Source: Antedon bifida (Eukaryota > Echinodermata > Crinoidea > Comatulida > Antedonidae). From it: a DNA stretch of 64,000 nt. The stretch spans positions 9,496,917 through 9,560,916 of the forward strand of contig OY727101.1 of assembly GCA_963402885.1 (NCBI GenBank), written 5' to 3'. The notes below the pieces were generated by a model. That model was not told where the DNA came from. It was given only the letters and a program-made list of their open reading frames with translations, and ran no database searches. The translations under genes and the position numbers were made by a program. Positions 37,817 to 58,010 of the stretch are shown one piece after another; position 1 is the stretch's first letter, and every line of letters starts with the position of its first letter.

Positions 37817-39036
37817 CACTCTAATAATTAAAAATCTATAGTAACCCCTTCTAATAGGAATCCGGACCGAATAGTCCCAGGGCCGAATCGTCCCGCAACC
37901 CTTCTAATAGTAACCCACTTACAGTATAATGACCCACTACTCTAATAATAGTAACGCATGGGGGTTTCTATTTTAAAGTCACAAAAACTATTGACAAAAT
38001 GACATTGAAGACTGGTCGTTTATGATACAACCGTTTTAAAAATAAGGAGATAATGCATGTTTATCTCGGGGAGTGAGGGAGGATTGAGTGTTTTTGTGAG
38101 TTTATAAAATAAAGTTAGAGTTTAAACAAATTTTATTCGTATTAAATTTTATTATTTTGCTATGAGTTGCTGACCGAAAAAGTTGGGATGGGTTACTATT
38201 TTCACGTGCCTAATTTAAGATTAGTAATAGTCCGGTGGCAGGAGGGCGGGAAATCACCACCCGAAAGGGGACAAATTGCCATCTAACTTTTATAGACCAG
38301 AATTTTCCGTAGATTACGAATATAAGGTAATCGATCAGGATAGGAAGCGTTTTCGAGATATAAGGGGTCAAAGTTCAAAATTGACCAATTACAACAATGT
38401 ATTATGTATTATAACAAATTTATTGAAGCACAATTTGGTCTTTTACTAAATTTTTATGATTATAGGTGTCTATTCAATCACCTTATGACAAAAAAAATCC
38501 TTTGTGATTAAGGGTCAAATTAAGGGTGTGGTGTTTTATGTAGAGAAGGGTGTCTATTGAATGGGAAAACAATACAATTGTCTTGTTATGTAACATACAG
38601 TACAAGGAACAATACAGAACAAAAACCAGTCAATTTTTGACTAATAATATTAATTATTAAACTAATACAATTAGGATTTAATTAAAACATCTGAAAATAT
38701 ACTATATTAATGATATATATATATATATTACAATCGGTTCTACAAACAATATAACTAAATTTAATACTACAGTTTAATTGGAATTAAATTAAGATGTTTT
38801 AATTCCGATTGATTGTAGTATTTAATGTTTTAATTGGAATTAAAACATACTACAATACAATCGGAATTAACATCTTAAATACTACAGTACAATCGAAATT
38901 AAAACATGTAGTATTTAGGATGTTTTAATTTCGATTGTATTATAGTACTTAATATATTTTAATTGGAATTAAAACATATTCAGTACAATACAATCGGAAT
39001 TAAAACATGTTAAATACTACATTACAATTAAGTTAC
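37817..39036. repeat. Non-coding flank ending in an AT-rich self-complementary array
   Basis: From about 38680 to 39030 the motif AATTGGAATTAAAACAT alternates with its inverse and with ACAATCGGAATTAA at intervals of 50-70 bases. The array ends just after the stop codon of the Merlin-like gene, so it could be the decayed subterminal part of that transposon. Repeated CTAATAGTAACCC units occur near 37850-37970. Nothing coding was seen. Confidence 0.5.
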
Positions 39037-39105
39037 CTACACTCTATAATGTTGTGAAATATCTAGAAGAATGTTGGCAAATGCCTCTTCACCTGACCTA
39101 CCATA
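39037..39105 (-). pseudogene. Merlin/ISXO2-like transposase, last 22 codons
   Basis: Minus-strand frame YGRSGEEAFANILLDISQHY ending at a TAG (39037-39039). It continues directly from FMWRER at 45280, on the far side of the 6.17 kb element, sharing the ATA duplication. Together they form the usual C-terminus of ISXO2/Merlin transposases. Confidence 0.85.
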
Positions 39106-39850
39106 TAGTCCAGTCAATCTATGACAAAAAAGGGCGTAACCCAAAACAAATTGTTTCCAAACCTTTTTTGTTTGATTCTATAAGCATCTGGGAAGATCAT
39201 TTCCAAAATCTACCAAAATCGGTTCAGTGGAACATACTTTTTTTTGGTGTCAAACTATTCAGAAGACCCATATTTATATGTACTCTAATAAAACCTTTTT
39301 ACCAAAAATTACAGGAAAGCATGTTTTTGACCTTTGACTTATTTTATTGTATATTTTCGTATATTCGTATCTTAGTAACCAGTGGGCGTAGGTGAGCGTT
39401 ATTTGCGTCAAACTACTCAGAAGGTCAATGTTTATATTAGCTCTAATGGAAAAGATTCGTGTAAAACGACCGGAAGTCATTATTTTGACCTTTGACACAT
39501 ATTCATTATTTTAGATTTCTAACCACTAAGCACAACTTCGTCAATTTTGTGTCAAAAGATTCAGAAGACTCATATTTATATTCACTATAATGAAAAAGTT
39601 TTTTAAAAAATGGATGGAAACTATGTTTTTGACCTTTGACCTATTATACCAGTATCGTATCTCAATAGCCAATGGGCATAGATTAATTTTTTTATTTGTT
39701 ACATTATAGAGAAGATCTATGTTTATATTTACTCTAATGAAAACAAATGCAAATGTACAATATAACCGAATCATTATTTTGACCGTTAACATTTTCTAGT
39801 CGTGTTATGAATAAATCTCGAGTCTGAGTATAACATTTTAAATTTGTAAT
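39106..39850 (+). repeat. Left inverted arm of XPG element 1 (about 4 subrepeats)
   Basis: Subrepeats recur at steps of roughly 146-155 bases. The GACCTTTGAC core is seen near 39330, 39485 and 39631, with a degenerate one near 39781. Each unit also has TTCAGAAG, a CTCTAAT(G/A) block and an ACCGGAAG-like piece. A perfect TGACCTTTGACCT lies at 39630-39642. Confidence 0.8.
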
Positions 39851-39994
39851 AATGTGAGTAAAAATATATTATATTATAAAATCATTTTCAAAAGAAGAAA
39901 GTTCAAACCAGAGGTCACTAATTGAATATACAGCTTTCCCATTGGCTGAAAGTTATTGCCACAACAGATTTTGAATTTTATATGAAGATTTGAA

Positions 39995-42900
39995 ATGGTG
40001 AGTATTAACACTCTAACAATACATATGCAGCAAGATACAGGAATCGAAGTTGATGATACTATTCAGGACGAGCAATGTTCATCAGTTTCAGGTAGTTATT
40101 TTAAAATTTCAAATCTCGGCATAAACTAGCAAGTATATATATATATTATTTGTAAAGGTCAAACAAAAATGTTTGAATTGGTTTAACCATGGATTAAAGA
40201 ATAGAAGGATATGCATCGACGTGAGATCAAGGGTTCCTTGACTCTCGCCGACAGACCGCGGACCGCCCACAATGTTACAGTTTAATTAACCGCATGGTAA
40301 CAACGAAACGGTCGCGTGCCTAATATATTGTTTACTGCACATGTGCAACGACATTTAACCTTGTTGGCTACGCTTCTTTCGCGCGTTCTTTGGTTTCCGG
40401 TCCTTCATAGAAACTTTACTGCTACCACATAGCCTACAAATCGTTTGCAGACACAATTGGTGATTGCTCATTTTCTATCTAGAAAATAGAAAATATTGTT
40501 GCACCTATGTATTCATACATATTTGAACAGTATAATCAGTGGCGTAACGACTATGTGCGCTCACTGGCTAAACCCAGGGGCCCTGAAGCTTGGGGCCCAT
40601 GAGCAGTGCCCAAAGGAACAGGCATAAAATATGTCGAAAGTGCTAAAAACGTCCCAGGCCTCGATCTTTGAAACTTAGAGGGCCACTTAGGTTTCCTAAA
40701 CAAGTGGCTACAGGCCTCCCACTGAGTATAATTTTTATTGAAAACAGTTATTAAATTACATTGTATGTTATTGTGAAGACCCTAGTGTAGGCCTACTTCA
40801 TCAATATACCAGGTAAAAACAATACTATATTGTTATTGGCTTAGAATTGTAGATGCTATAATTGTAATTAGTATAGGTTTCTGCCGCGATTGATCTTCGC
40901 TAATGTTTTTATGACATTAAAGTAGCATTTTATGACCTGTAGTAGCCCTACATCTGAGACAATAACTATTTGTTGTCTCAGCCTACATGTAAAATTAAAA
41001 AATCAGCAAGAATACTAGGCCTAGGCCTTCTAGGCTTACTAGTAAACCATATGATTTGCCGACATTGATACTGCTAATCTTAAGTGTAGTAGATACAACA
41101 TTTAATCATGATCTATATACTCACCGTTGTCTTACTTCTTGTGTGAATAATAATAGGTACTTCGTTTGTTCGTGATTAAGTTTGCCCTGCGTGTACTTTT
41201 CAAAACGACCGCTAGGTAACGTATCGCAAACTATACATAGCGAGCCAATCCCGGATCAGGGATCGCTGTTTTCATTCAATTAGGCCCGGTGATTGGATGT
41301 GATGTGGATGACATAACCACTAGCCAATCACCAGGCACTACAATTTAAATATAATCACATCGATAATTAAGGAGATTTATGAAGAAACCACTGCTTAGCC
41401 ATATATTAAAAACACGATTGTTGTATGTGTGAACACCGGCCACGCTAACAACATACATGATCAAATGCATAATTTAATATTCTATAGATTAACGCAATTT
41501 TTAATGACAGAAGATGGCAGGCAAATAATGATAATTCAAATATAAAAATTGCATATTTTATTAATATTACCAACTACTTAAAATTACCAGTCGTAAGAAA
41601 GTGAACTTTTCGTAGTCCGATTGTGATGAAACTAAAACAGAATTGTTCAGCAATATATTTTTGTTGTCAATTAATCATCGACGCAGACATGTCAATAGAA
41701 CATTCAGACTGCGCATACGATTTCTACATGGTTACGTTTTGGTCTCAAAAAATGTAACAGTTGATTCACAGCGTTTTACAGAGGGCCGCGGTTAGAGACA
41801 CGGAGTTCAATGAGCGTGTTTGTTTGATTGGCAGCAGTGCTTTAGTATAGGCAAGCGCGTTGTAAAATCGTTTGATGTCACCGTCGATGCATATCCTTCT
41901 ATTCTTTAATCCATGGTTTAACACGTATATATTTTTTGCCATGTAATACAATGTAATAATACAAAAATATGGTTATTTCAATTTCAGTCCCCGATCGTCA
42001 TGTCATAAACAAAGTTATTCCACTTTTGACAAAATAATACTCTGGAGAGAATATTGTTAGGAACAATTTCACCATTTGATTTGCAGAACGATCAGATTAT
42101 AAGAGTTTTACAAGACAGATTTGAGGCAGACAAGAAACGGTTAGGAGAATACCGAACAGCAAACCTTTGGTTCCAGTATATGGAAATGATAGATATCCTA
42201 CGTACTTTCATCAACTAGGAAATTGGGAACTTCACCTACAATGTCTCTATGATATGCTGCCATTTTTTGCGGCGTCTGGACATAACCTGTATACCAAAAG
42301 TGGGTCCTTTCAACTCCAGTCTGCGCCGAGATCAATCATTCAATGCAAGAGTTCACTAACGTTTCGTATACTACCAGTGAACAACATAAAGAAACAACAT
42401 ATGCCATAAAGATGAAGGACCTCAGTGATGTACAAGACATATCAAGGTATCTGACACAGCGAAATCCATTCAATACAGACAGTACAAAATCACTGAGAAA
42501 CATTGCAACTGGAGTGACGGCACATATCAATGTAGACTGTGACAATGCCAAGCATGTAGGTCAACAAATTGTGCAATCAATGACAAACCAAAAGGTCGCC
42601 GACTACACATTTCGGAAAAAGAGCCAATCCATTACAATGAACTCTAAAAGCGCATTGAAGATAAAAGACGACTTGTAACTGCCGGCACAAGATGCGATAA
42701 TGTATCAGATATATTTAGATATGAGCTTTGTTCATATCCACCAGATATGATGAGGTCTGCAAATAAAGCTAGTTTAGCTGATAATTTGTGGTCAACAGCA
42801 ATCGAGGTTGCTCCAGAACCTCCTTATCAAATTCAGTAAGTCTTAGATGGAGGAGCACTACTTCATAAAATTCCATGGACAAGAGGGGCTTCATGGGGTG

Positions 42901-44031
42901 ACATTATGAGAGTATACACTAAATATGTTTCTCACAAATATGGAAAACCATATTGTTTTTGATGGGTGCGATAACTCACTAAGTACAAAAGACTGTACAC
43001 ATACAATGAGAAGTGGTGGTGGTGGTGTTGGTGTAGCTACACTTTGACCAATCTATATGACCTTACAAACCAAAAAAGAAGAATTTCTGTCAAACGTTCA
43101 AAACAAACAAAGATTCATTAACATTTTGGGAAATAGTCTTGAAAAAGAAGGTTGTACTGTTCACCACGCAGAAGCTGACGCTGACTATCTTGTGTCGAAG
43201 ATGGCTCTGTCCTGTGCAGAACAAATAGGCACGGTTGTCATCGCAGATGATACAGATATCCTGGTCCTCCTTATCCATCATGGTGGTCACGTCAAACACA
43301 ATGTATGGTTCAAGCCAAACCAAAGGAAAGAAACTAAAAAGGCGCAACGATATTGGAACTTTGCGGCAACAAGACTTGACCTTGGCAGCGATGTTTGTAA
43401 ATATATCCTATTTTGTCACACGTTCCTTGGATGTGACACGACATCACGATTTTTTGGTATTGGGAAAATCAAAGCAGTAACTAAAGTAAGAAGTGACTGT
43501 TTCTTTTCTGAACAAGCCAAAGTTTTTATGACTTGTAAGGCAAACAGACAGGAGGTAATTGCAGCGGGTAATAACGCCATTTTGTCTTTGTATGGCAGCA
43601 GCGATAATGAAAACCTAGATGAATTGAGGTTTCGTAAATTTCATGAAAAGACTACATGCAGTACTAAAGCAGTTCATCCACGTTCTTTACCCCCAACGGC
43701 ATCAGCGGCAAAGTATCATAGTCTAAGGGTGTACCAACAAGTTCAAGTTTGGCTTTGAAATGAAGAAAATGTACCTCCAGATAAATATGGATGGAAGATC
43801 AGCCAAGGCAGGATGATACCATATTTGACGGACAACCCCCCAGCACCACAAGCGCTCCTACAAATCATAAGATGCAAATGCAAAACAGGCTGCTATAATA
43901 TGAAATGCAGCTGTAGGAACAATGGATTAGATTGCTCCATGCCATGTAGTGAGTGTCGAGGTGTATGTGCAAACATTTCACTAGATGATAATGAAGATAC
44001 CGATTCTGAAGATTCAACAATGGATTTGTAA
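39995..44031 (+). pseudogene. XPG/FEN1-like nuclease gene with Cys-rich C-terminus, damaged
   Basis: A first exon-like piece (39995-40091) has a donor; the matching acceptor is at 41988, and the 1.73 kb TTAA insertion sits in this intron. Downstream sequence reads through several frames. GNWELHLQCLYDMLPFFAAS (about 42200) is followed by RNPFNTDSTKSLRNIATGV (42460s), and then the nuclease frame 43057-43758. That frame has AEADADYLVSKMA (XPG-I-like), IADDTDILVLL, and FLGCDTTSRFFGIGKIKAV, which resembles the FEN1 helix-hairpin-helix GCDY...GIGPKRA. The next frame (43813-44031) ends with a nine-cysteine CKCKTGC...CSCRNNGLDCS module like a CXC zinc finger. In-frame stops (for example after 42035 and near 42840) and frameshifts make this copy inactive. 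Structure-specific flap cleavage during transposition is an inference. Confidence 0.75.
40187..41917. mobile_element. 1.73-kb TTAA-flanked insertion inside XPG element 1
   Basis: Inverted ends share CCATGGATTAAAGAATAGAA continuing to GGATATGCATCGACG, about 35 bp in all. TTAA lies on both sides (40183-40186, 41918-41921). TTAA duplications are typical of piggyBac and Kolobok elements. No transposase frame is visible, so it is non-autonomous. It interrupts an intron of the XPG gene. A CAGTGGCGTAACGAC motif near 40540, reminiscent of hAT ends, may mark another nested fragment. Confidence 0.8.
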
Positions 44032-44149
44032 AATCAGACGATTGGTAAATATTCTCAACCAGGCCTATTTGGGTAATTATTTTATTTTTTCTGTTTTGTG
44101 TGTTTTTAGAGTAAATATAAACAGAATAATGAATAGTTAAATGTTATCT

Positions 44150-45276
44150 TGGGTGCTGATCTATGAAGAAATATAACACCAATATATAGCCCCAATTACT
44201 AAACGTTTTCTGGATAGATATCAAAGGTCAAAATAATTACTTTGCATTGACTATATACACAGACATTTTTTATTAGAGTGGATATCCTTCTGAGTTGTTT
44301 GACACAAAAAATGCTCATCTACACCCATAGTTCACAAAGATACAAATATATAAATATAATAGTTTAAAGCTTCCGGTCATTTTCTGTAAAAAAAGTTTCA
44401 TTAGAGTAAATAAATATGGTTCTTCTGAATTGTTTAACACAAAAGTTACGCTTATTGGTCACCGAGATACAAAAAATATATTTAGTGAGATATGAAATAA
44501 TGAATATATGTCAACGGTCAAAACGATGACTTCCGGTCATACCACACTTTTTCATTAGAGTGAATATAAATATAGACCTTCTAAATATTTTGACACAAAA
44601 AATGCTTATCTACGCCCATTGGTTACAAAGATATGAATATACCAATATAATAGGTCAAAGGTCAAAATAGTAGTTTCCGGTCATTTTTTGTAAAAAGTTT
44701 TATTAGAGTGGATATAAATATGGGTCTTCTGAATTGATTAACACAAAAATTACGAATTTACACCTATTGGTCACTGAGATACAACAAATATAATTAGTGA
44801 AATAATATAAAATAATGAATATATGTCAAAGGTCAAAATGATGTCTTCTGGTCATAATACACAAAACGTTTTCATTAGAGTGAATATAAACATAGTTTTT
44901 TGAGTATTTTGACACCAAAAACGCTTGTTTATGCCCAGTGGTTACCGAGATATGAATATGCCAAAATAATAGGTCAAAGGTCAAAAACATGGATTCCGGT
45001 CATTTTTGATAAAAAACTTTCATAAGAGTTAATATAAATATGGGTCTTCTGAATTGTTTGACACCAAAATTACCAAGTTCGGCCAAGCGGTTACTGAGAT
45101 ATACAAATATATAATTTGACCCCCATGACCTCTTGACCCCTTAAAAAAGTATGTTCCACTGAACCGATTTTGGTAGATTTTGGAAATGTTTCTTCCAGGA
45201 ACATATAGAATCAAATAAAAAAGGTTCGGAAACTATTGCAATTTGTTTTGGGTCTATCGGTAGATTGACTGGACTA
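44150..45276 (-). repeat. Right inverted arm of XPG element 1 (about 6-7 subrepeats)
   Basis: The arm is the inverse of the left arm but longer. GGTCAAA/TTCCGGTCA cores lie near 44224, 44372, 44516, 44656, 44826 and 44976, about 150 bases apart. Perfect AGGTCAAAGGTCA occurs at 44652-44664 and 44971-44983, with a one-mismatch copy at 44822-44834. Confidence 0.8.
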
Positions 45277-45453
45277 ATACCGCTCCCGCCACATAAATTC
45301 GTCCAAATACTCTGGTACCCACTCTCGCTTCCAGCCCCGCATTCTCTTCATCTTCAGCTTAGCCCGGTTCCAATACGACTCGATGTACTGGGTGTGCACA
45401 CCAGTGGCTGGGTCGACGAAGTGCCTGCTGTGGTTCACCATCTGATGTTCTAC
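45277..45453 (-). pseudogene. Merlin/ISXO2-like transposase, C-terminal catalytic exon, interrupted
   Basis: Minus-strand frame [20 protein letters not shown], then [10 protein letters not shown] and [11 protein letters not shown]. This is the third catalytic block of DDE_Tnp_IS1595/ISXO2-type transposases, with the likely acidic residue in HTQYIESYW. The exon starts at 45453 after an AG and follows in phase 0 on the exon ending at 56038. Its remaining 22 codons are at 39037-39105, displaced by XPG element 1. Confidence 0.85.
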
Positions 45454-45707
45454 CTTTTGTAATATAATGATATACATTTATAATTGAGAAATCAACCTTT
45501 GTATTAGAATTCAACTAAGTTTACAAACTTGACCCAGAAAGTCCAGAGGAGAGTTTGTCCAGATGTTTAAAAAGTACATTTAGTCCATTTAGCTCATAAT
45601 TAAATCCCAAAAGTAAACAGTTTATTTGACCTCTCTAACTGTTCTCATCGTAAAACAATTAGATATTGACAGTTTTAAGCAAAGATTCGACAGGGCCAAT
45701 TCATCAT

Positions 45708-46049
45708 TGTAACCTCCCCAGATAAGATCAATCACTCCCACCTAAACACCCCTGGATCAACTTAGGACCAATCGTTACCCTCACAGATGACGTAGTGACA
45801 TATGCAAATGAACCGAAGCCAATATACCCCCAAGTTTCAGAAGAGCCCAGACACACCTCACAGCCATTTCTCCAGAAGCAGACCTACACATTTCACATCT
45901 CACCGACAGCATCACCTATCCTCTGTTCCTTAGTTATAGTTGTATATTGTACAGAAGTATTATTGTATCAAGTATTATACTGAATAAACAATATATGTGT
46001 TACGACAGTCAAGCGAGTAGAGTCTTCCTTACAAGTCAGAAACCTCATA
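45708..46049 (+). mobile_element. Possible solo LTR
   Basis: The segment runs TGTAACCTCCCC to ACCTCATAACA, so it is bounded by TG and CA. It has a late AATAAA (about 45983) followed by about 60 bases, a layout typical of an LTR with U3-R-U5. No target duplication was found and no second copy is in view. It could equally be unrelated unique sequence. Confidence 0.3.
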
Positions 46050-46109
46050 ACAACACTATATTACACTGTAATAAAAAATAAATTTACGGTTATATAGCGC
46101 ATAACCCGT

Positions 46110-46850
46110 AAGAAAAAAATCTATAGAATTTCTATAACAAAATTCTATAGAAATTATATACAAATTCTATATATTTTACTATTAGATTTCGTATAGAAAC
46201 AACTTTAGAAATAACTTTAGAAATAGCTTAAGAAATAGCTTTAGAAATTCTTTAGAATATCTTTAGAAATTCTTGAGAATATCTTTAGAGTTTTTTTTTA
46301 GTTTCGTATAGAATTTCTATGGGTTTATCTATACAGTACAATTATCTTCTATATATTATTCTATATGATTCCGATAGACTTTTCAATAGAGTTGTTATAG
46401 ATTGTGTATAGATATTGTATAGAAATATCTTTAGAAATTCTTTAGAATATCTTTATACTTTCTTATAGAGTTTCTAAAGATTTCTCTGTACAGTACAGTT
46501 ATTTACTATTAGTATATATATTCTATAGAATTCCGATAGACTTTTCAATATAGTTGTTATAGATTGTTCATAGAAATTGTATAGAGATTGTTTAGAATGT
46601 CTTATATATATCTTATATAATATCTAAAGAGTTTCTAAACATTTCTCTATATACAATTCGGAACAATTCTATAATAATTCCGATGGACTTTTCGATAGAT
46701 TTCGTATAGAACCTTTATAGATATTTCATAGAAATATCGATAGAGGTTTTATAGATTTAACTTCTGACCAATTCTATGTTCTATAGAATTCTGATATATT
46801 TTCCGGAGTTGTTAATATTTGGTTTAGATAGAAATTATATACAAATGAAA
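46110..46850. repeat. AT-rich TATAGAAAT repeat arm, left
   Basis: A dense array of TTTAGAAATTCTTTAGAATA, TATAGAATT and CCGATAGACTTTTCAATA-type units, with a loose period near 190 bases. It lies just outside the 3' end of the BEN gene. A related CTATAGAT array lies at 55090-55960 on the other side of the TNP2 gene. AGCGCATA plus CCCGTA occurs near the outer edge of both arrays, in inverted orientation. They may be subterminal repeats of one transposon spanning about 46.1-56.0 kb. Confidence 0.6.
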
Positions 46851-46918
46851 TCTTTATGTTAACAACTTTTATTCAACAACAAGTCATGGAAGTAATCCAT
46901 TAACAAATCAAACATCAC

Positions 46919-48702
46919 TTAAAACATCTCGTCTTGAACTTCCATATTATCTATCCTTTCTGTTCTCCCATTAAGTTCCTTCAATTTGTTGGACAGTGAA
47001 CTTTTAATACCCCCACTGGTGCAGTTGGGGAATTTTCTGCATGACAGTTCTGAAAAGATGAAACACATGCGTTTATGAGTTTTATCGGATGAATCAATAG
47101 GACAATGTACAGACTTAAACAATTAATTATTGTGTATACCAAATATATTTAGAAATATCTCACTTAATTAGAATGAAGAATTCAATCTATAGGCCTAATT
47201 ATATTCATTGACCAAATTTACAGTCTGGATACCATACATAAAATAAACAGGGTGACAGGATATTTGAAGACAACGACAAAATAAAATTACAGGTACACCA
47301 AATCACAGGTACACCAAATCACAACATATACACATTACGCTTACATACATGATTGAAACATTATTATAAACCGTCATCAACGAAAGTTCCATTTCATTCT
47401 GTATATCAACAAATATATGACGGGATTCAAACTCGCATACAGGACGGGTATCAATAGACCACAGACAAACACACCAGATACCTTTTTTCACATTCAAGGT
47501 GAGAGTGATTATTGGACTTACCAACTATAGCACTAACTTTTGCGGGGTCTAAACTTTCCTTTTCAGTACTATTTTTTAAAGCGTTGGACTTCCGTCCTGT
47601 GAGGCTCTTTTCTATTAGCTCTTTTATGTCTGGATAAACCAATGTTAGTAACTTTCTTGCATAAGTTCCAGTTTTCACATTTGCTATAGAAATTAATTTA
47701 GCCTTTTCCACGAGGACACCCCCTCCAATGTCAATCTGTCGAATAGAAAAAAAAATGTTTGTCACTACAGTAAACATTTCAAATTAATCATTTCCTTTTT
47801 GTTTTGTCGTTATTAATCATGAGTTCAATCCGAAAGTTTTATCGAAGCACATCACATACTGATAACATTGATTCAAATCAAATGTCATTATTTAGTGTAT
47901 AATAATACGATAAAAATGAAGAATCACATGTTAAAATAAATGTTAATACACATCACATTTGTATCAAGAAACGGGTTGGATTATTTGTATAATAATTTTA
48001 TTAAAATAATTAACCTACTTTTTGCAGTGAACATATAATATATTTGATTTAGTAATCAATCATTAAATTATGGCATATATTTGTACCTTCTTTGGCTCCT
48101 TCAGCCGCATTGGTGAATCGTCAGCCAACATTCCTGGTAGTTCCTGATAATATAAACAGTTCTGTGTTTTAGCTTGATTGTATCTCATTGCAGTAAACAC
48201 GGGAGTAAACATCACTACATTGAATTCTTATTTAGACAATATAGATATTTTTTGTTATATTGTCCAGGAGTGTTTTTTGGGGGAGGCGTTTATTCTTTTG
48301 GGTGTAAAGCCTTGTCTACACTATCAAACTTTATGTGACAACAAAATGCGATGTGGCCATATATGGACACGATGATGTTATATCACTACAGAAGTTGGGC
48401 ATACCACTACCATATTTGGGCACACCACTTGTTTGTCAAACTGCTTTTATAGTTTCGACGGAGCTTACTATGGTAACATGTATAATAAAATAAATACTAG
48501 GGCGTTCATGGTTTATTACAAATGATGCGTGACCAGGGGATAGTGAAATCGCACTCTTTCCTGGCATAGCAATGGCTAGATCACACTGAGGAAATAGCAA
48601 ACGGGAAGGGTGAAGCGTTGGCGTTACCTTTTTTTCCTTCAGATAACGGCTGATCACGACTTTCTGTTACATCTTTAAGATTTGTAATCATCTTGTCGAG
48701 TT
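46919..48702 (-). CDS. BEN-domain protein, partial (4 exons found)
   Basis: Exons 48628-48702, 48087-48133 (or to 48143), 47522-47735 and 46919-47049 join in frame and end at a TAA. The main exon gives IDIGGGVLVEKAKLISIANV, then YARKLLTLVYPDIKELIEKS and LDPAKVSAIV. The last exon adds ELSCRKFP and IKSSLSNKLKEL. This is the pattern of the BEN domain, an alpha-helical DNA- or protein-binding module found in chromatin factors, some viruses and mobile elements. The 5' exon was not found; it should lie between 48.7 and 49.2 kb, and a minus-strand ATG in GGAGATGGCGCC near 49100 is one candidate. The gene faces away from the TNP2 transposase with a short shared upstream region, so it is probably the second gene of that transposon. 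Confidence 0.75.
48303..48475. mobile_element. Small MITE with GTCTACACT ends, copy 2
   Basis: Starts CCTTGTCTACACTATCAAAC and contains GGCCATATATGGACACGATG, matching the copy at 22926-23046. The right end is diverged (GTTTGTCAAACTGC, then TAGTTTCGACGGAGCTT). It lies in an intron of the BEN gene. Confidence 0.65.
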
Positions 48703-49493
48703 CTGAAAATATCAATAACCATTGTAATGACATTAAAGGTGAAATATATACATCAATAATTATTAACCAATAATCATTGTAATTAAATTTAAGGTGAAAT
48801 ATATACAGTACATTATACTGTATATAAAACCAATGGCAAATTACAATGCTATGGGTACCAGCTGGATCTCAATAGAGGATACAAAAAAAACTAGATTTGA
48901 ACTCGTCACTACGGACGAGTTAGGTTATCCTCACGACAAACTCCACGTGCACGTCATACGTTAGAATAAGGCGCACAGAAAAAAATGTTAGTGCGCTCTC
49001 TATTTTGTGTCACATCTAAGTATATACAGTATACACTATATACGGCATACGTACTGCATACAGTGCAGAATAGGTGAAAATAAGTGACCGAAGGCGCCAT
49101 CTCCCGCCGAAATATCCCCAAAAAGTAGTCGTCGTATTAATATCAAAGATAGGCCTAGTATAGTATCTTTTTGGTATTATAATAAACCGTGCGTACCGTT
49201 ACAACAAAAGACCCGACTAAATAATAAATAAAAGAAAAAATGTCTATCTCCAGGGCGAAAATAAAAAAGCGGAGATTATCTTTCAGTTCTTCAAAATTTG
49301 ATTATGCTAGTACTAGGCCTAGGTCTACTAGTAGTTGTAGTAGTAATAACGATTCTATAATACTAGGTCTAGGCCTAGGCCGAGGAGGAGGAAGAGGATC
49401 TGACACAGGCCTAGGAGGCCCACCCCTAGCCCTTATTGGCAGTAGTCGGCCGGCAGTCAGCTCACTCGCAGTCAAGTTTAGACTTATGCTGGT

Positions 49494-50617
49494 AAATATG
49501 ATATAACGATCACATTGAATACTGATGGTGTGAGTGTGTTCAAGTCCTCAAAGTATGGGTTATGGCCCTTAGAAATAATGGTAAATGAACTTCCTTATCA
49601 TTTGAAAAGAAAAAATATCTTTCTTGGTGGACTTTGGTTTGGAAGTTCAAAACCTAATATGAACACTTTTTTAAAACCGATAGTTTCTGAAATTAACGAG
49701 TTGTCAACAGATGGTTTTAAATGGAAAGATAGCATAGGAAAGCATAGAACAAAGGTAATTGCAACAATGTTTACATGTGATGCACCTGCAAGGTGTATCG
49801 TACAAAATATACATCAGTACAATGGATCGTATGGTTGCACATGGTGTTTGGCTCCTGGAGAGAGGCATGGGAATGGAAATGCTCGTGTATATACAGCTAC
49901 AAAACTGCATCAATTAAGAGATTCAGACACACATGCTGAATAATTAAGACGGGCTACAACTGATGGATCGCCCTACATGGGAGTTAAAGGTCCCTCTGTT
50001 TTATCTGAGTTAAATAACTTTAACATAATTAACAGCTTTGTGTTTGATTACATGCACACCGTGTGCCTTGGAGTAGTTCGTACTCTCACAGAGTTATGGG
50101 TAGACAGTAGACACCACACTGAAGAATATTACATTGGGAAATCAATTCGTAATCTTGATCAAAAACTGCATTAGCATTAGACCACCATCTGAAATTTCAC
50201 GTTTTACACCATCACTTAAGTTGTGGAAACATTGGAAGGCCAGTGAATGGAGGTCCTGGTTACTCCATTATTCAGCTGTAGTAACCCGTGATATATTACC
50301 ACGCCGATATTATATGCATTGGATGCTTTTGGTATCTGCTATGAATTTTTTGTTGAATAATGTTAATGAAGAAACACTCAATTTATGTGAAAGTTCAATC
50401 ATAGAATTTGTAGTCAATGTAGAATCTCTATATGGGAAAGAGTTAATGAGATTCAACTTACACCAACTTGTATTAGGAATTGGGGGCCATTGTGGTCATA
50501 TTCGACTTTTGCCTTTGAAGGAATGAATGGAAAGTTAAAAAAAATGTTCCATGGTACGCAATTTGTGCATGAACAGATTGCTACGAAATTTATGCTTATA
50601 AGCAATTTGCCGTCCCT
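49494..50617 (+). pseudogene. TNP2/CACTA-type transposase 1, N-terminal and catalytic part
   Basis: The frame opens with ITITLNTDGVSVFKSSKYGL (first catalytic D). It continues with NIFLGGLWFGSSKP, YGCTWCLAPGE (C-x2-C insertion) and FVFDYMHTVCLGVVRTLTEL (second D region), and then TFAFEGMNGKLKKMFHGTQF (catalytic E region). This is the order seen in animal EnSpm/CACTA (Plavaka-like) transposases. A TAA at 49941-49943 and frameshifts near 50165 and 50490 inactivate it. The frame is cut at 50617 by XPG element 2 and resumes at 54301. A preceding open stretch at 49240-49506 is built largely from TAGGCCTA repeats and may not be coding. Confidence 0.85.
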
Positions 50618-52140
50618 TAGTAGAGTAGAAATAAGGTTTCACCTCAAAAAAATTGCAACAAAAGGTTTTTCAGCGGATTTTGGTAGTATTGGGTGTACTA
50701 AATAACAGAATAAAAGTCTCAAGAATTTCGACCACCGGAAAGTGGTTTTTTTCAAGATGGCCGCCAAAATAGATAAAAAGTTAAAATGTCCATACCTCCT
50801 AAACTACTTGGTCTATTGATATGATTTTGGTACCAAAATACTCAGAACATACATATTTATATTTGCCCTAATAGAACATTTTAGCCAAAAATGACCGGAA
50901 ATGCTATTTCTTGCATGTTTGACCTTTGACCTTGATATGTTGTATATTGGTAACAACTGACCGTAGGGAAACAAATTGTGGCTCAAATTGTTCAGAATGT
51001 ACATATTTACATTTATTGTAATGAGACATTTTGTCAAAAAATGGTTGGAAGTAAAGGTTATTGACCTTTAACCTTTATCTAGGTAGAATTTCCATATCTC
51101 GGCAACTATGTGTGGTAGAGATTTAAAATTGGGCTCTAAATACTGAGAATATACTTATTTATATTTACTCTAATGAAACAGTTTGACAAAAAAATGACCA
51201 GAAACAACATTTTTGACCATTGACCTTGATATGCTATATTTCGATAATGACTGACTGAGATACACCATTTATGGCTCAATTTGTTCAGAATATAATTATT
51301 TTTATTTCGTATAATGGTCTAATCTACCCATGGAATTAAGAGCTTTCCTGGGAATCAAGTAACTGTAATATTTATAAAGACTTTTAGAATATGAGTTCAG
51401 GTTCAAATTGTTCAGGACATACTGTATACATTCTTAATACATAATAAAAGTGAATAAAAAACCCGAAAAATAAACAAAAACAAATATAATAATAATTTAA
51501 AATTACGGTATAGCAGCAGTTGATTGGATATTGTGCTGGTATTTAGTACAGCATCCTAAACAACTGTTTCAACTTCGTCTTCATCATCGTCATCAATCTC
51601 TCTATCTACGTTGTTCCATTCTTCTAGTTGACACACTCCACAAACTGAAGTACATGCCAATTCATAGTCTACAACTGCAACGTACAGTTTTACATCCAGT
51701 AGTACAGTTACAATGAATGATTTTCAAAGGTTCTTCTGAAGCAGCAGTTTCAATCGTCATTATTGGCACAAATGTTTTATTACAAACTTTTCATTCCCAC
51801 TTGGTAGCATCCATGGTATTATCTTTCTTTATCCATTGCATGATTTGATAGTATACTCTAAGACTGTGACATTTTGTAGCAGATGAGGTTGGTGGTAGTA
51901 GTTGTTGAGGTTTATTAAACAGCTTGCATCTGTAGCTATTTAGGGAATCCAGTGACTTGGCTCCAAAAAGAATAGACATGGCCTTTAATCCAAACTCCTC
52001 GATAGTTTGAAGTTTCTGATGCGGTTGAGTAAAAATATCGGCACACGCAGTGTCATATTCTGGGTTACTTTCTATCAATTTATTGGTTTATTTGCCTTCC
52101 TAAAGATGTCTTTGGCTTCGAAGAGTGAGGGTGGAAACGG

Positions 52141-53340
52141 ACTTAGTTCATATTTCATTATCATCGTCTAGAGAGATTTGTCCTAACTGAATTTGATGGA
52201 AAGAAAGAAGAGTTCCTGTCAAGGCATGAGAACAAACACAAATTTATCAACATGCTTTCATATGAGCTACAGAATAAAAAATGTCCTGTACGACATGCAG
52301 CCAACGAGTGGAGTTGTGGCTTGGTGGTTATGATGCTTGGCTACCACTCCAAGGGTCCTGTCGAGTTCAAGTCCCGTCACATGTCAGGACCAAATTACTA
52401 CACTCCCAAAGACTTGTAATAAGACTTTGTTTATGTAGAGCATCTTGTGTATATGTTTGGCTTGTGAACCTCTGAGGGTCCCTAATGATCAGCAATAGCT
52501 GAATGGATCACCCTCATTAAATATGGTTTAAAAAAAAAAACAGTTGAAGTCTCTGAACATAATACAGTAACTTTGATTGGAGAAGACACTGACTTACTGG
52601 TACTTTTACTGTATCATGTAAATACAACAAACCGAGAAGTGTACTTCAGATCAGACAAAAGAAAAGATGGGCCTACTAGAGTGAATAATGTAACCAGATT
52701 GAAATCTGTTTTAGGATATAAAATGTGAAATGCATTACCCATAGTGCATGCATTCACTGGTTGTGATTCGACATCTAGGATTTTCGGAATCGGCAAGAAA
52801 GCGGCATTTAATAAATTGATTGAAAGTAACCCAGAATATGACATGTGTGCCGATATTTTCACTCAACCGCATCAGAAACTTTAAACTATCGAGGAGTTTG
52901 AACTGAAGGCCATGTCCATTCTTTTTGGAGCCAAGTCACTGGATTCCCTGAATAGCTACAGATGCAAGCTGTTTAATAAGAAAGTTGTTGAGGGTAAATC
53001 ATTTATCAAACCTAGCCTCAACAACTACCACCAACCTCATCTGCTACAAAATGTCACAGTCAAATCATGCAATGGATAGCTAGAAAGATAATACCATGGA
53101 TGCTACCAAGTGGGAATGGAAAGTTTGTAATAAAACATTTGTGCCAATAATGACGATGGAAACTGCTGCGCCAGAAGAACTTTGAAAATCATCCATTGTA
53201 ACTGTACTACTGGATGTATGTTGCAGTTGTAGACGCTATGGATTGGCATGTACTTCAGTTTGTGGAGTGTGTCAACTAGAAGAATGGGACAACGTAGATA
53301 GAGAGATTGATGATGATGATTAAGACGAAGTTGGAACAGT
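52141..53340 (+). pseudogene. XPG/FEN1-like nuclease gene remnant in element 2
   Basis: It begins with KKEEFLSRHENKHKFINML, matching the KKEEFLSNVQNKQRFINIL region of element 1. After a SINE insertion it continues TVTLIGEDTDLLVLLLYH, VHAFTGCDSTSRIFGIGKKA, and DIFTQPHQKL before IEEFELKAMSILFGAKSLDS. A cysteine-rich end reads CTTGCMLQL-like through several frames near 53200-53330. Stops, the SINE and a deletion in the LPPTS...YHSLRVY region mark it as dead. The antisense copy in the left arm (51791-52078) keeps LLPPTSSATKCHSLRVYYQI. Confidence 0.75.
52297..52542 (+). mobile_element. tRNA-derived SINE with poly-A tail (second family)
   Basis: A box-A-like TGGCTTGGTGGTTATGATG and a box-B-like GAGTTCAAGTC lie about 50 bases apart in the first 80 bases. 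A non-tRNA body follows and ends in ten A. It splits the XPG-like frame between RHAA and TVEVSEHN. It differs from the SINE at 8-165. Confidence 0.75.
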
Positions 53341-54297
53341 TGTTTAGGATGCCGTACTAAATACATGCACAATATCTAATCAATTGCTGCTACACCGTAA
53401 TTAGAAATTTAAAAGTTATTATTATATTTGTTTTTGTTTACTTTTCGGTTTTTTATTCACTATTATTATTAAGAATGTATACAGTATGTTCTGAACAATT
53501 TGAACTTGAACTCATATTCTAAAAGTCTTTATAAATATTACAGTTACTTGATTCCCAGGAAAGCTCTTAATTCCATGGGTAGATTAGACCATTATACGAA
53601 ATAAACATAATTATATTCTGAACAAATTGAGCCATAAATGGTGTATCTCAGTCAGTCATTATCGAAATATAGCATATCAAGGTCAATGGTCAAAAATGTC
53701 GTTTCTGGTAATTTTTTGTCAAACTGTTTCATTAGAGTAAATATAAATAAGTATATTCTCAGTATTTAGAGCCCAATTTTAAATCTCTACCACACATAGT
53801 TGCCGAGATATGGAAATTCTACCTAGATAAAGGTTAAAGGTCAATAACCTTTACTTTCAACCATTTTTTGACAAAATGTCTCATTACAATAAATGTAAAT
53901 ATGTACATTCTGAACAATTTGAGCCACAATTTGTTTCCCTACGGTCAGTTGTTACCAAGATACAACATATCAAGGTCAAAGGTCAAACATGCAAGAAATA
54001 GCATTTCCGGTCATTTTTGGCCAAAATTTTCTATTAGGGCAAATATAAATATGTATGTTCTGTGTATTTTGGTACCAAAATCATATCAATAGACCAAGTA
54101 GTTTAGGAGGTATGGACATTTTAACGTTTTATCTAGTTTGGCGGCCATCTTGAAAAAAAACACTTTCCGGTGGTCGAAATTCTTGAGACTTTTTTTCTGT
54201 TATTTAGTACACCCAATACTACCAAAATCCGTTGAAAAACCTTTTGTTGCAATTTTTTTGAGGTTGGCCCCTTTTTTTAATTAGTTCTACTCTACTA

Positions 54298-54883
54298 CCT
54301 CTCTGTTGGAGCGTTTTGCACAGATTCGCAAGCAAACGCTTTTTATTGTCGAAATGTGTATGGATACGATAAAACAAAATCAAAATCAGATATACACTCT
54401 TGTGGTTTACCAGTTATCTTCAATTTAAATCATGTGCAGATCAATTCTCTAGATGCTATTGGTGTTGATGTGAACAATAAAGTGTATGCATATCGTAATG
54501 TAATTACAGATGGAGGTTTGACATTATCATCGAAATTGATCCAGCACAAAAGCCTTAAGAGAAATAATTCATGTGTCCAATTTGATAATGATAAGAAAGG
54601 CATCATTGAACTTATATTATCTATTTGTCCAAACAAATGTAGTATCCTATGTGACTGTCACAAAGAGCTTTACTGTATAATCAATAGTTTAAATACTGTC
54701 CGAAATGTATTTACAAAGAAAACAGATATGTATAACGTCCACCTGGACAGTTTAATACAGGTCGAACTTACCAATGAAAGAGTTGCTTGTCCTGTGACAG
54801 AAATCTCGGGAAAGTTAATTTTTATGAAATGTAATGAACATATATATGTATCTTTGCTTCCAAATGGAATAGAGTTTGATTAA
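54298..54883 (+). pseudogene. TNP2/CACTA-type transposase 1, C-terminal part
   Basis: The frame resumes as SVGAFCTDSQANAFYCRNVY, followed by YDKTKSKSDIHSCGLPV, and runs open to a TAA at 54881-54883. Joined at the CCT duplication, LPSL and SVGAF connect with no extra bases or frame change. The C-terminal 180 residues have the usual beta-rich, weakly conserved character of this family's tail. Confidence 0.85.
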
Positions 54884-55089
54884 ATTTGTTGATTCTGTGT
54901 AAAAACCATGTTTTTGTTACTTTTATTGGTGTTTAGAAAGCTTGGTACATGTTGCATTATTTTTACATTAATGTAATGAGGTGTTTGTTCTCCTTCCATG
55001 ATCCCATATAGATGAACAGCCTAATTTAATTGTTTCACTTTTTTTCTGCGGCCATTATCTACAGTACCTTAAGCAAGTTTTCAGTTTAA

Positions 55090-55960
55090 AAAATAAATAG
55101 TTTTTAGAAGTATATACGTCATACGTAAACGTATAATCGATACTAAATGTTATAGAATATTTATAAGAAATTATATATATAATTTAGATGAAACTCTTTA
55201 AAAATCTACAAAATATCTATATAAACATCTATAAAAAAAATCGATATTTCATAGATATCTTAGTACAATTTATATCTAAACTTTTATCAAAAATCAGATT
55301 TCTATAGATGAAACAAAAAGTCTAGAAAATATCTATATAAAATCTATACAAAAATCAATAAACGTCTATCGATATTTATATAAATATCTCAATACAATTT
55401 CTATCTAAACATCTATAAAAATTCTATAAAAATTCTATCAGTTTTCTATAGATGAAATCTATAGATGAAACTCTTTAAAATTCCACAAATATCTATATAA
55501 AATCTATACAAAAAAATCAATATAAACGTCTATCGATATTTCATAGAGATCTTAGTACAATTTCTATCTAAACTTTTATAAAAAATTCTATAAACATTCT
55601 ATCAGATTTCTATAGATGAAATCTATAGATGAAACTCTTTAAAATTCTACAAAAATATCTATATAAAATCTATAAAAAAAATCAATATAAACGTCTACCG
55701 ATATCTTAGTACAATTTCTATCTAAACTTCTATAGAAAATCTATCCGATTTCTATAGATAGAATATAGAATAAATTAATGAAGAAATGCCAAGTTTATTT
55801 CTATAGATTAAAAAGTTTATAGAAATTCTATACATTCTCTACATAGATTCATTTCTTTAGAATGTATTTATATATAAATATCTATATAAAAACATGGTTC
55901 TATAAACATTTCTATGAACTCTATAAACTTTCTATTGAATTTCTATAGAATTCTATCATT
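55090..55960. repeat. AT-rich CTATAGATGAAA tandem array, right
   Basis: At least four units of about 165 bases, each with CTATAGATGAAACTCTTTAA, then ATCTATATAAAATCTAT, TCAATATAAACGTCTA and ACAATTTCTATCTAAAC. It ends at a TTCTACGGG/ATCTATGCGCT motif near 55965-55990, which mirrors AGCGCATAACCCGTAAG near 46095. It is a likely subterminal array of the TNP2/BEN unit. Confidence 0.65.
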
Positions 55961-56037
55961 CTACGGGAATGCTTAAAGCATCTATGCGCTGTGGAAAAAA
56001 AAAAGCAAGTTTCCGTTAAAAATAGAAAAAAAAAAAC

Positions 56038-56839
56038 CTTTGAATATGCTTTCCATGAATCCGAATACACGATGGTTCCTGGCCTTACATGGTCCTGAAT
56101 AATTGGTAGAAGGGTTGCAGCTGCCCGGTTCTCCACCACTTTCATATGTCCCAAAGCAGGCTTGTACAATGTGTCGGCAAGTCCAAAAACCCAGAGTGTT
56201 TCAGCTTCCCTGCCCCGGCCATTCTACAAGAAAAACAAAATTAATTAGACCCTACTCTAATAATATATATTATTAATCTATAATAAAAGAGGCATGTCTT
56301 AATTGTTATTTGCTGTTGTGTATTTACAGATGAAATGAAAACATTGTCATGCACTGGACCTGGCAGAATGTTCCTCAAACTGGATAGTGTAATTTAAAAT
56401 TGTAACATCTAGGGTATTTTTCTTGCCTTTTGCTTGAAACTGAACACACTTTCGTCTATTTGAACAATTACCCCAGGTCCACCTTAGACGCAAAGGTCGG
56501 CGATCATCTGCATGGAACAGACATCTCTCAGCCACCGAAAGTGCTGGATGACTTTTTTCTTTTTCTGTCTAGTCAGTTCCTCAACCTGAAAAGATAAAAT
56601 TATAATAATAGTTAATGCTAATTCAATTTTATTTCTTTCCAATACCAAAAAAAACCATTATTTATTTATTTATTTAGGTATAAAACACATATACAAAACA
56701 GCAGCCATTGGCTGATAACGTTTGTTTACAATCAATATACAAATTTAAAGTAAAAGAGGCACAATTATAAACAGTATAGAAAAATAACTATATATTATAA
56801 AACACAAAATACAATATTATTCGTTCATAAAATTAAGTA

Positions 56840-56870
<31 letters not shown>

Positions 56871-57167
56871 TAAGATTATTATTAGTATAATAATTTGACA
56901 CAAAGATATGTTAATACACTGCAGAGCAGAGACAGTATATGGGTAATGAAAACAGTAATAATGGTAAAGAGTACTATAAGAACATTTGTGAAAGAATACC
57001 AATAAAACTATTAGTACTTACTTGCTTCACTGAATTATCCATTGCCCAGTAGTATACCGTGAGCAGCCACAAATCCAATGCAATCTTGACCTGCTCCAAA
57101 AAAGTCCCAGTCCTCATGCTGACAGTGCATTTGCATTTGCTGCATCTCCATGCTACAGTATCGATAC
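56038..57167 (-). pseudogene. Merlin/ISXO2-like transposase, three upstream exons
   Basis: Exons 57022-57167, 56427-56585 and 56038-56223 join in phase. Exon 1 gives WRCSKCKCTVSMRTGTFLEQ. Exon 2 gives IQHFRWLRDVCSMQ and GGPGVIVQIDESVFSFKQK (first catalytic D). Exon 3 gives GRGREAETLWVFGLADT and HVRPGTIVYSDSWKAYSK (second D). This is the DDE_Tnp_IS1595/ISXO2 fold order. A TAA at 56484-56486 interrupts exon 2 just before GGPG. The exon 2 donor is GC (AAG/GCAAGA). The next exon in phase is at 45277-45453, so the intron contains the whole TNP2/BEN unit. A (TTA)n run lies near 56841-56870. The N-terminus upstream of 57167 was not found. Confidence 0.85.
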
Positions 57168-57199
57168 CTAAAGAAGAGAGACATTAAATTTATAAGCAA

Positions 57200-58010
57200 T
57201 TCCATCGATCCATACCAAAATATTAGTGTTATAACGTTCGTAAAGCCAGTTACTTATTCGCCGTAGAGGGTGTAGATGCAAACAAATTCGCGGAACTAGG
57301 GTGGCAATTGGTAAAGTAGGTCAAGGGTGATCAATCCATACCAAAATATTCTGAAAAAATTAAGTAGGTCAAGTGTTATAACGTTCGTAAAGCCAGTTAC
57401 TTATTCGCCGTAGAGGGCGTAGATGCAAAAAAGTTCGCGGAACTAGGGTGGCAAATAGTAAAGTAGGTCAAGTGTCATTGATCCATACCAAAATGTTTGA
57501 AAAAATTAAGTAGGTCAAGTGTTATAACGTTCGTAAAAGCCAGTTACTTATTCGCCGTAGAGGGCGTAGATGCAAAAAAGTTCGCGGAACTGGGGTGGCA
57601 AATGGTAAAGTACGTCAAGGGTCATCGATCCATACCAAAATATTGTAAAAATAAAGTAGGTCAAGAGTTATAACATTCGTAAAGCCAGTTACTTATTTGC
57701 CGTGGAGGGCGTAGATGCAAAAAAGTTTGCGGAACTAGGGTGGCAATTAAATTGGTAGTAGGTCAATGGTGATCGATCCATACCAAAATATTTTGAAAAA
57801 ATTAAGTAGGTCAAGTGGTATAACATTCGTAAAGGCCAGTTACTTATTCGCCGTAGATGCAAAAAAGTTCGCGGAATGGTAAAGTAACGGTAATGGTTAA
57901 GGGTCATCGATCTATAACAAAATATTAAGTAGGTCAAGTGTTATAACGTTTGTAAAAGTTAGTTACTTATTCGCCGTAGAGGGTGTAAATGCATAAAATG
58001 TTATTGAACT
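57200..58010. repeat. Minisatellite, about 147-bp unit, six copies
   Basis: The phrase ATAACGTTCGTAAAGCCAGT with CTTATTCGCCGTAGAGGG recurs at about 57231, 57379, 57523, 57670, 57820 and 57942, that is every 122-150 bases. Each unit also has TTCGCGGAACTAGGGTGGCA and GATCCATACCAAAATATT. No coding sense is apparent. Confidence 0.85.

Follow-up and report, generated by a model that had tools for sequence, protein, structure and literature searches.

The stretch of DNA analysed here (64,000 nucleotides of the crinoid Antedon bifida, C14:9496917-9560916 on a 21.9-Mb contig), hereafter called the window, contains a nest of transposons in which a gene copy of the Merlin superfamily and a TNP2 transposase gene are interrupted by two elements, element 1 and element 2, that by their sequence fit the AcademX lineage of Academ DNA transposons. 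The nest is real, and the insertion order read from it in a first-pass annotation was in part misread. Parts of the nest were compared with the whole genome (315.6 Mb in 27 contigs), whose relatives are given locus numbers (L) below. The interrupted genes and the interrupting elements are listed in window positions, with target-site duplications (TSDs) where they were read.

57013-57168, minus strand: Merlin-like upstream exon, from a tblastx match to paralogs L039 and L040
56436-56588, minus strand: Merlin-like exon with one in-frame stop, from its translation; its IDES is taken by us as the first catalytic Asp
56039-56223, minus strand: Merlin-like exon with the ISXO2-like DDE domain (DDE_Tnp_IS1595, Pfam PF12762, 1.9e-8 on 55921-56223)
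45280-45452, minus strand: first piece of the last Merlin-like exon, on the right side of element 1, continuing into 39037-39105
39037-39105, minus strand: Merlin-like last exon, second piece, ending at a stop, from translation of the joined frame
45453-56038, no strand assigned: block with the BEN/TNP2 element and 600 bp to its left, missing from the Merlin exon of the paralogs (L039 and L040 colinear)
47451-47783, minus strand: open reading frame (ORF) with a BEN domain (PF10523, 5.3e-5)
49482-50617, plus strand: TNP2 transposase, left piece, with frame changes (Transposase_21 of EnSpm/CACTA, PF02992, 1.3e-10 on 49482-49940)
54301-54883, plus strand: TNP2 frame, right piece, joining the left piece without element 2 and one CCT
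39106-45276, plus strand: element 1, AcademX-like, decayed, termini TAGTCCAGTCAATCTA / TAGATTGACTGGACTA, TSD ATA, from the joints and from relatives L034, L036 and L050
39103-39105, no strand assigned: left TSD ATA of element 1, with the right copy at 45277-45279
50618-54297, no strand assigned: element 2, AcademX-like fold-back, termini TAGTAGAGTAGAA, TSD CCT, from the joints

Joints of the two interrupted genes

The first-pass annotation had placed element 1 in the final Merlin exon at an ATA and element 2 in the TNP2 frame at a CCT, and both placements were confirmed: element 1 starts with TAGTCCAGTCAATCTA at 39106, ends in its complement at 45276 and has ATA on both sides, and element 2 has CCT on both sides. 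As had also been claimed, removing the inserts makes both frames continuous, that of Merlin on the minus strand and that of TNP2 on the plus strand, provided that one TSD copy is kept. Uninterrupted relatives exist for both joints, at the DNA level for Merlin and, weakly, at the protein level for TNP2. Since the frames close across the joints and such relatives exist, it is supported that the Merlin and TNP2 genes predate their interruptions.

Comparison of the joined Merlin exon with the genome yielded 70 candidates, and among the 40 scored two span the joint (C8:19411740 and C8:19400232, 73-74% identity); the paralogs L039 and L040 are uninterrupted there. Two others were the query's own halves and the remaining 36 were matches of 45-48 bp to one end. 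L041 and L044, which are among these 36 and whose ends were read by eye, are non-autonomous copies with 8-bp TSDs (AAAGAAGA and AAAACAGC), as expected for Merlin, a superfamily defined by its terminal inverted repeat (TIR) and a TSD of 8-9 bp. The search with the TNP2 protein gave 12 matches, two of them the query's own halves and five crossing the joint. These five are weak (28-36% identity, E values of 2.9e-6 to 6.8e-5); three share identical coordinates and scores and may be copies of one repeat, and one covers residues 2-223 within a stop-free frame of 740 amino acids. No TNP2 paralog was found in the genome at the DNA level, both matches being the query itself, and the TNP2 frame is broken also upstream of the joint, where the ORF shifts frame near 49943 and 50174-50526.

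The TNP2/BEN unit had been described as lying between Merlin exons. The Transposase_21, BEN and DDE_Tnp_IS1595 domains are present at the places assigned to them, whereas the implied intron has no counterpart in the paralogs: L039 aligns to 45284-45448 and resumes at 56036 after 29 bp of its own sequence, and L040 aligns to 45284-45390 and resumes at 56036 after 42 bp. The 10.6-kb block thus interrupts what is one exon in L039 and L040, which makes the label intronic doubtful, as judged from these alignments. A genuine Merlin intron that later took in TNP2/BEN would agree with a GT, seen by eye on the minus strand, where the exon ends near 56038 and an AG ahead of 45453, and with the roughly 600 bp at the left that are not TNP2. 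At 70-74% identity to the paralogs a lineage-specific intron is possible; as neither L039 nor L040 has such an intron, we consider this explanation possible but doubtful. EnSpm/CACTA elements are defined by CACTA-like termini with a TSD of 2-3 bp. Local comparison for inverted repeats at the ends of the block gave only AT-rich matches of 62-67% identity; with its ends not found, it is colinearity with the paralogs that defines this layer, a point against the history proposed below.

The left part of the block, between the Merlin exon and the TNP2/BEN element, is a stretch of about 600 bp (45454-46060), and by eye the sequence at about 45709-46053 resembles a solo long terminal repeat (start TGTAACC, end ACA) with no clear TSD. 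The 3' flank of the Merlin gene (38793-39028) carries an imperfect 129-bp repeat, and similar stretches adjoin the non-autonomous Merlin-type copies L042 and L043. The paralogs L039 and L040 lie about 11 kb apart (C8:19398732-19413430) with an end of the element-2 family between them at C8:19409735.

Copies elsewhere in the genome and the order of the layers

Each of the two AcademX-like elements carries an insert.

52310-52540 (approximate limits), plus strand: insert in element 2 resembling a short interspersed element (SINE), at the position of 26 coding bp in L029
40188-41915, no strand assigned: 1.73-kb insert in element 1, TIR CATGGATTAAAG, TSD GTTTAAC, no long ORF listed; empty site in L034 and 7-bp TSDs elsewhere

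For the element-2 family, 40 of 835 first-look candidates were scored and 17 copies were fetched, which with the window copy makes 18, and all 18 are flanked by perfect 3-bp TSDs of varied target sequence. Three twins located at other sites (L017, L018 and L019) are 99.70-99.78% identical to the window copy over about 3660-3680 bp and 99.86-99.92% identical to each other; in 3659 columns the window copy has 7 private substitutions and the other three have 2, 1 and 1. Thirteen further copies of 3244-3267 bp form a subfamily (98.95-100% mutual identity, mean 99.64 over 78 pairs) that is about 88.7% identical to element 2, and L029 (3455 bp) is about 91% identical to element 2 and 95% to the subfamily. 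The arms of element 2 (50641-52084 and 52810-54264), which contain the 3' end of the element-2 gene, are 92.4% identical over 1474 columns. As the arms differ by about 8% and the four copies by at most 0.3%, the arms are old and the jumps recent. When the subfamily copies (L021-L033) are compared with window positions 50618-54297, their 3244-bp core is inverted relative to the arms, as if recombination between the arms had flipped the core.

The SINE is present in 17 of the 18 copies (all four of element 2 and all 13 of the subfamily), and only L029 is without it; in the twins it stands at the same place as in the window copy. When the genome was searched with the SINE, matches of 99-100% among the 40 scored of 2278 candidates were found only in the four element-2 copies. 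Its presence in twins at other sites and in the subfamily indicates that the SINE entered the family before the spread and was carried into TNP2. The earlier claim that it was the last insertion is rejected, as it arrived inside element 2. Nesting alone can thus mislead about insertion order when a passenger rides in its carrier, and only copies elsewhere reveal it.

The insert in element 1 had been described as flanked by TTAA at 40187-41917. A 1.73-kb insert does lie there, but neither these coordinates nor the TTAA flanks stood: the TSD is GTTTAAC, at 40181-40187 and 41916-41922, and the TTAA is found inside it. Element-1 relatives L034-L036 were fetched, and the site is covered only by L034, which next to it is about 95% identical to element 1, shows GTTTAAC once and lacks the insert. 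Other copies of the insert are 94-100% identical over all or part of its first 298 bp (40 scored of 326 candidates). Among the 10 fetched, 4 were unreadable at the right end and 6 were readable at both; five of these six have exact 7-bp TSDs (four different, one GTTTAAC as in the window) and the sixth has a 7-bp TSD with a mismatch. A TTAA TSD defines piggyBac or Kolobok elements, and the 7-bp TSDs in all six other readable copies lead us to reject a TTAA-type element.

The first-pass annotation had put Merlin first, TNP2/BEN with element 1 second, element 2 with the TTAA insert third, and the SINE last. The nesting itself and both joints agree with this scheme, and its first step, Merlin and TNP2 being older than their inserts, is retained; as a whole it is highly improbable, given that the SINE occurs in four element-2 copies and 13 sister-subfamily copies and that the 'TTAA' insert has a 7-bp TSD. 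To the suspicion that the nest is an artefact of assembly we attach almost no weight: the families are highly repetitive, but both AcademX-like elements and the 1.73-kb insert are bounded by perfect TSDs, there are relatives without the interruptions, and the contig extends over 21.9 Mb. Such nesting had also been called uncommon, a view we do not share, as nested transposons are commonplace and first-look candidates of the same families number 835, 326 and 2278 genome-wide.

AcademX-like proteins and subterminal units

The coding remnant of element 1 and the arrays of subterminal units in both elements, with their sites resembling the nuclear-receptor consensus DR1, are as follows.

43048-44028, plus strand: element 1 nuclease-like region and C-terminal CXC-like cysteine domain, one internal TGA, from likeness to L066
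39328-39642, minus strand: element 1 left array, DR1-like sites at 39328, 39486 and 39630
44652-44983, plus strand: element 1 right array, DR1-like sites at 44652, 44823 and 44971
50920-51226, minus strand: element 2 left array, DR1-like sites at 50920, 51062 and 51214
53680-53985, plus strand: element 2 right array, DR1-like sites at 53680, 53831 and 53973

The AcademX nuclease is of the XPG type. TSDs of 3-4 bp and a nuclease are reported for AcademX in PMC10045372 (after PMC7165386). Here, all 21 elements whose two ends were read have 3-bp TSDs, namely the 18 of the element-2 family, element 1, and L066 and L067 (the last two by eye). Of 428 candidates found with the element-1 protein, 125 were scored, and among the resulting 126 matches seven lie in open frames of 1148-1700 amino acids. 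L066 has a frame of 1458 amino acids from stop to stop, TIRs of 99.3-99.6% identity over about 680 bp, ends starting with TAGTC and the TSD TTT; L067 has a frame of 1552 amino acids from stop to stop, ends TAGTCTGG and the TSD TTG. Both frames are long enough for a DDE transposase in the same protein. The nuclease-like region of element 1 (query 2-309) is 43% identical to the intact frame of 1458 amino acids.

The assignment of a putative nuclease is based on the order of motifs seen by eye in alignment A1 (DGG, VFDGYE, GDAD, DDTDILVLL and GCDTTS..GIGK), which is the order expected of an XPG-type enzyme; host exons compared by eye show EAEAQ, TEDxD and GCDY..GIGxGK. Several results speak against this assignment: it was not confirmed by Pfam, a PDB sequence search or hhalign, the single-sequence AlphaFold model is poor (predicted local distance difference test, pLDDT, 39), and Pfam found nothing above cut-off in the L066 and L067 frames, no DDE model having been compared. 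In viral contigs, 59 stretches fit a pattern and none of the 59 encodes a relative of the nuclease, and a whole-word literature search for Academ with XPG found nothing. The CXC-like domain gave Pfam TCR E values of 0.13 and 0.81 on element-1 pieces, below cut-off, and no match on a piece of L029; that this domain might bind the TTTGA in the core of the subterminal units is only a lead.

Both AcademX-like elements of the nest, and two further families, carry subterminal units with the core GTCAAAGGTCAAA. At either end of element 1, element 2 and L066 there are three outward-pointing sites that differ from RGGTCANRGGTCA by at most one mismatch and lie 141-171 bp apart (141/151 in L066, 142/152 in element 2, and 158/144 and 171/148 in element 1), and L045, known by its units only, has arrays of three and of five DR1-like sites at its two ends. 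When 60 units were aligned, anchored on a different block, the best 13-mer was GTCAAAGGTCAAA. By column, GTCAAAGGTCAAAA is conserved and the preceding AG is weaker. The prominence of this core is reduced by other counts. With families weighted equally it is only level with TCTGAATAATTTG (1.268 against 1.262), so that DR1 as the single most conserved block was not upheld; 14 of 25 element-1-type units have at least two mismatches to RGGTCAAAGGTCA; L067, with its intact frame, has only one DR1; and no DR1 within one mismatch was found in 4 of 16 loci scanned (L035 and L053-L055, the latter three being short stretches with an element-1-like end).

DR1 is described in PMC1785376 as RGKTCA repeats with 1-bp spacing. 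The exact consensus AGGTCAAAGGTCA occurs 1962 times in the genome and its reversed control 18 times, base composition predicting about 7; among the first 100 sites listed, 44 have a neighbouring site no more than 350 bp away, where a uniform distribution would give 0.26. With spacers of 0-12, AGGTCA direct repeats number 6914, against 1133 for the control, and among the first 100 listed, spacer 1 accounts for 31, spacer 2 for 14 and spacer 4 for 12. Of eight DR1 sites inspected by eye, three lie in a recognisable unit, three in the same clusters outside a unit, and two are isolated. Beside the Merlin gene, at 57225-57998, there is a 147-bp tandem array (4.3 copies, 57225-57857) with three DR1-like sites of one mismatch, possibly the subterminal units of another element. 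At G000:C1:4547816-4551438 we observed a palindromic cluster of AGGTCA repeats with spacers of 2, 3 and 4 and a period of about 365 bp, unlike the DR1 arrays.

Proposed history and comparison with known systems

According to the history that we propose, two insertions would have broken a Merlin-superfamily gene copy: that of a TNP2/BEN element together with sequence around it, and that of the AcademX-like element 1, inside which lies the 1.73-kb element that has a 7-bp TSD and shows no long ORF. The second AcademX-like element, element 2, would have entered the TNP2 gene very recently. Element 2 is a non-autonomous fold-back in which the 5' part repeats the element's own 3' end in inverted form, and its nuclease frame has the SINE in place of 26 bp and further stops. 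Being non-autonomous, it probably depended for its move on an intact AcademX protein acting in trans, such as this genome still encodes. This protein might recognise the 5'-TAGT termini and the subterminal units, with tandem GTCAAAGGTCAAA, the best-conserved unit core, as the site recognised, and would duplicate 3 bp of the target. We consider the account as a whole, with a doubly interrupted Merlin gene, an insert in element 1 and a recent, trans-moved element 2 in TNP2, to be likely.

The ordinary reading of the core is that of a transposase-binding tandem GTCAAAG that may happen to equal DR1. Alternatively, GTCAAAGGTCAAA could be kept because host nuclear receptors, presumably of the HNF4, COUP-TF or RXR type, bind DR1 and thereby aid expression or accessibility of the element. 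The 1962 exact sites against 18 in the reversed control, the lead of spacer 1 among the first 100 listed repeats (31, next 14) and the DR1s outside the unit context are in favour of such an influence, but the conserved stretch continues 3' into AAA and the first AG of DR1 is less well conserved, as would be expected for a tandem GTCAAAG site of a transposase, and we judge selection by receptors to be unlikely. Quite unlikely, too, in our estimate, is a double role in which the DR1-shaped tandem site, which faces outward and stands three times at each end of element 1, element 2 and L066 with roughly one-nucleosome spacing (141-171 bp), would serve both the element's own transposase and a host nuclear receptor. 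If true, moving AcademX-type elements would have scattered many of about two thousand perfect DR1s as a ready-made receptor cistrome. The results also point to a testable link between a transposon subterminal repeat and a nuclear-receptor consensus that is about a hundredfold above its reversed control.

The window copy of the Merlin gene resembles known Merlin elements in its DDE_Tnp_IS1595 domain and in having two related non-autonomous copies with 8-bp TSDs, and differs in being decayed and interrupted and in that no TIR for it was found within the window. With AcademX, elements 1 and 2 share the 3-bp TSDs and a long single protein with an XPG-like motif order, the latter as seen by eye; possible differences are the fold-back arms with an inverted gene piece and the subterminal tandem GTCAAAG units, and neither the nuclease nor a DDE transposase was confirmed here by profile. 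CACTA elements carry subterminal repeats that bind their transposase, and our elements likewise repeat a subterminal motif that is inverted between the two ends, although the units are of about 150 bp and the motif is another one. A search by title in a partial collection of the literature gave papers on Alu with DR2 or HNF4 sites and none on DNA transposons with such receptor-like arrays. With Alu and its DR2 retinoic-acid or HNF4 sites (PMC1785376 and PMC3252374), the present families would have in common that a family spreads receptor-like direct repeats; here, in contrast, the carriers are DNA transposons, the DR1 arrays stand inverted at both ends, and the motif is the conserved core of the element's own unit.

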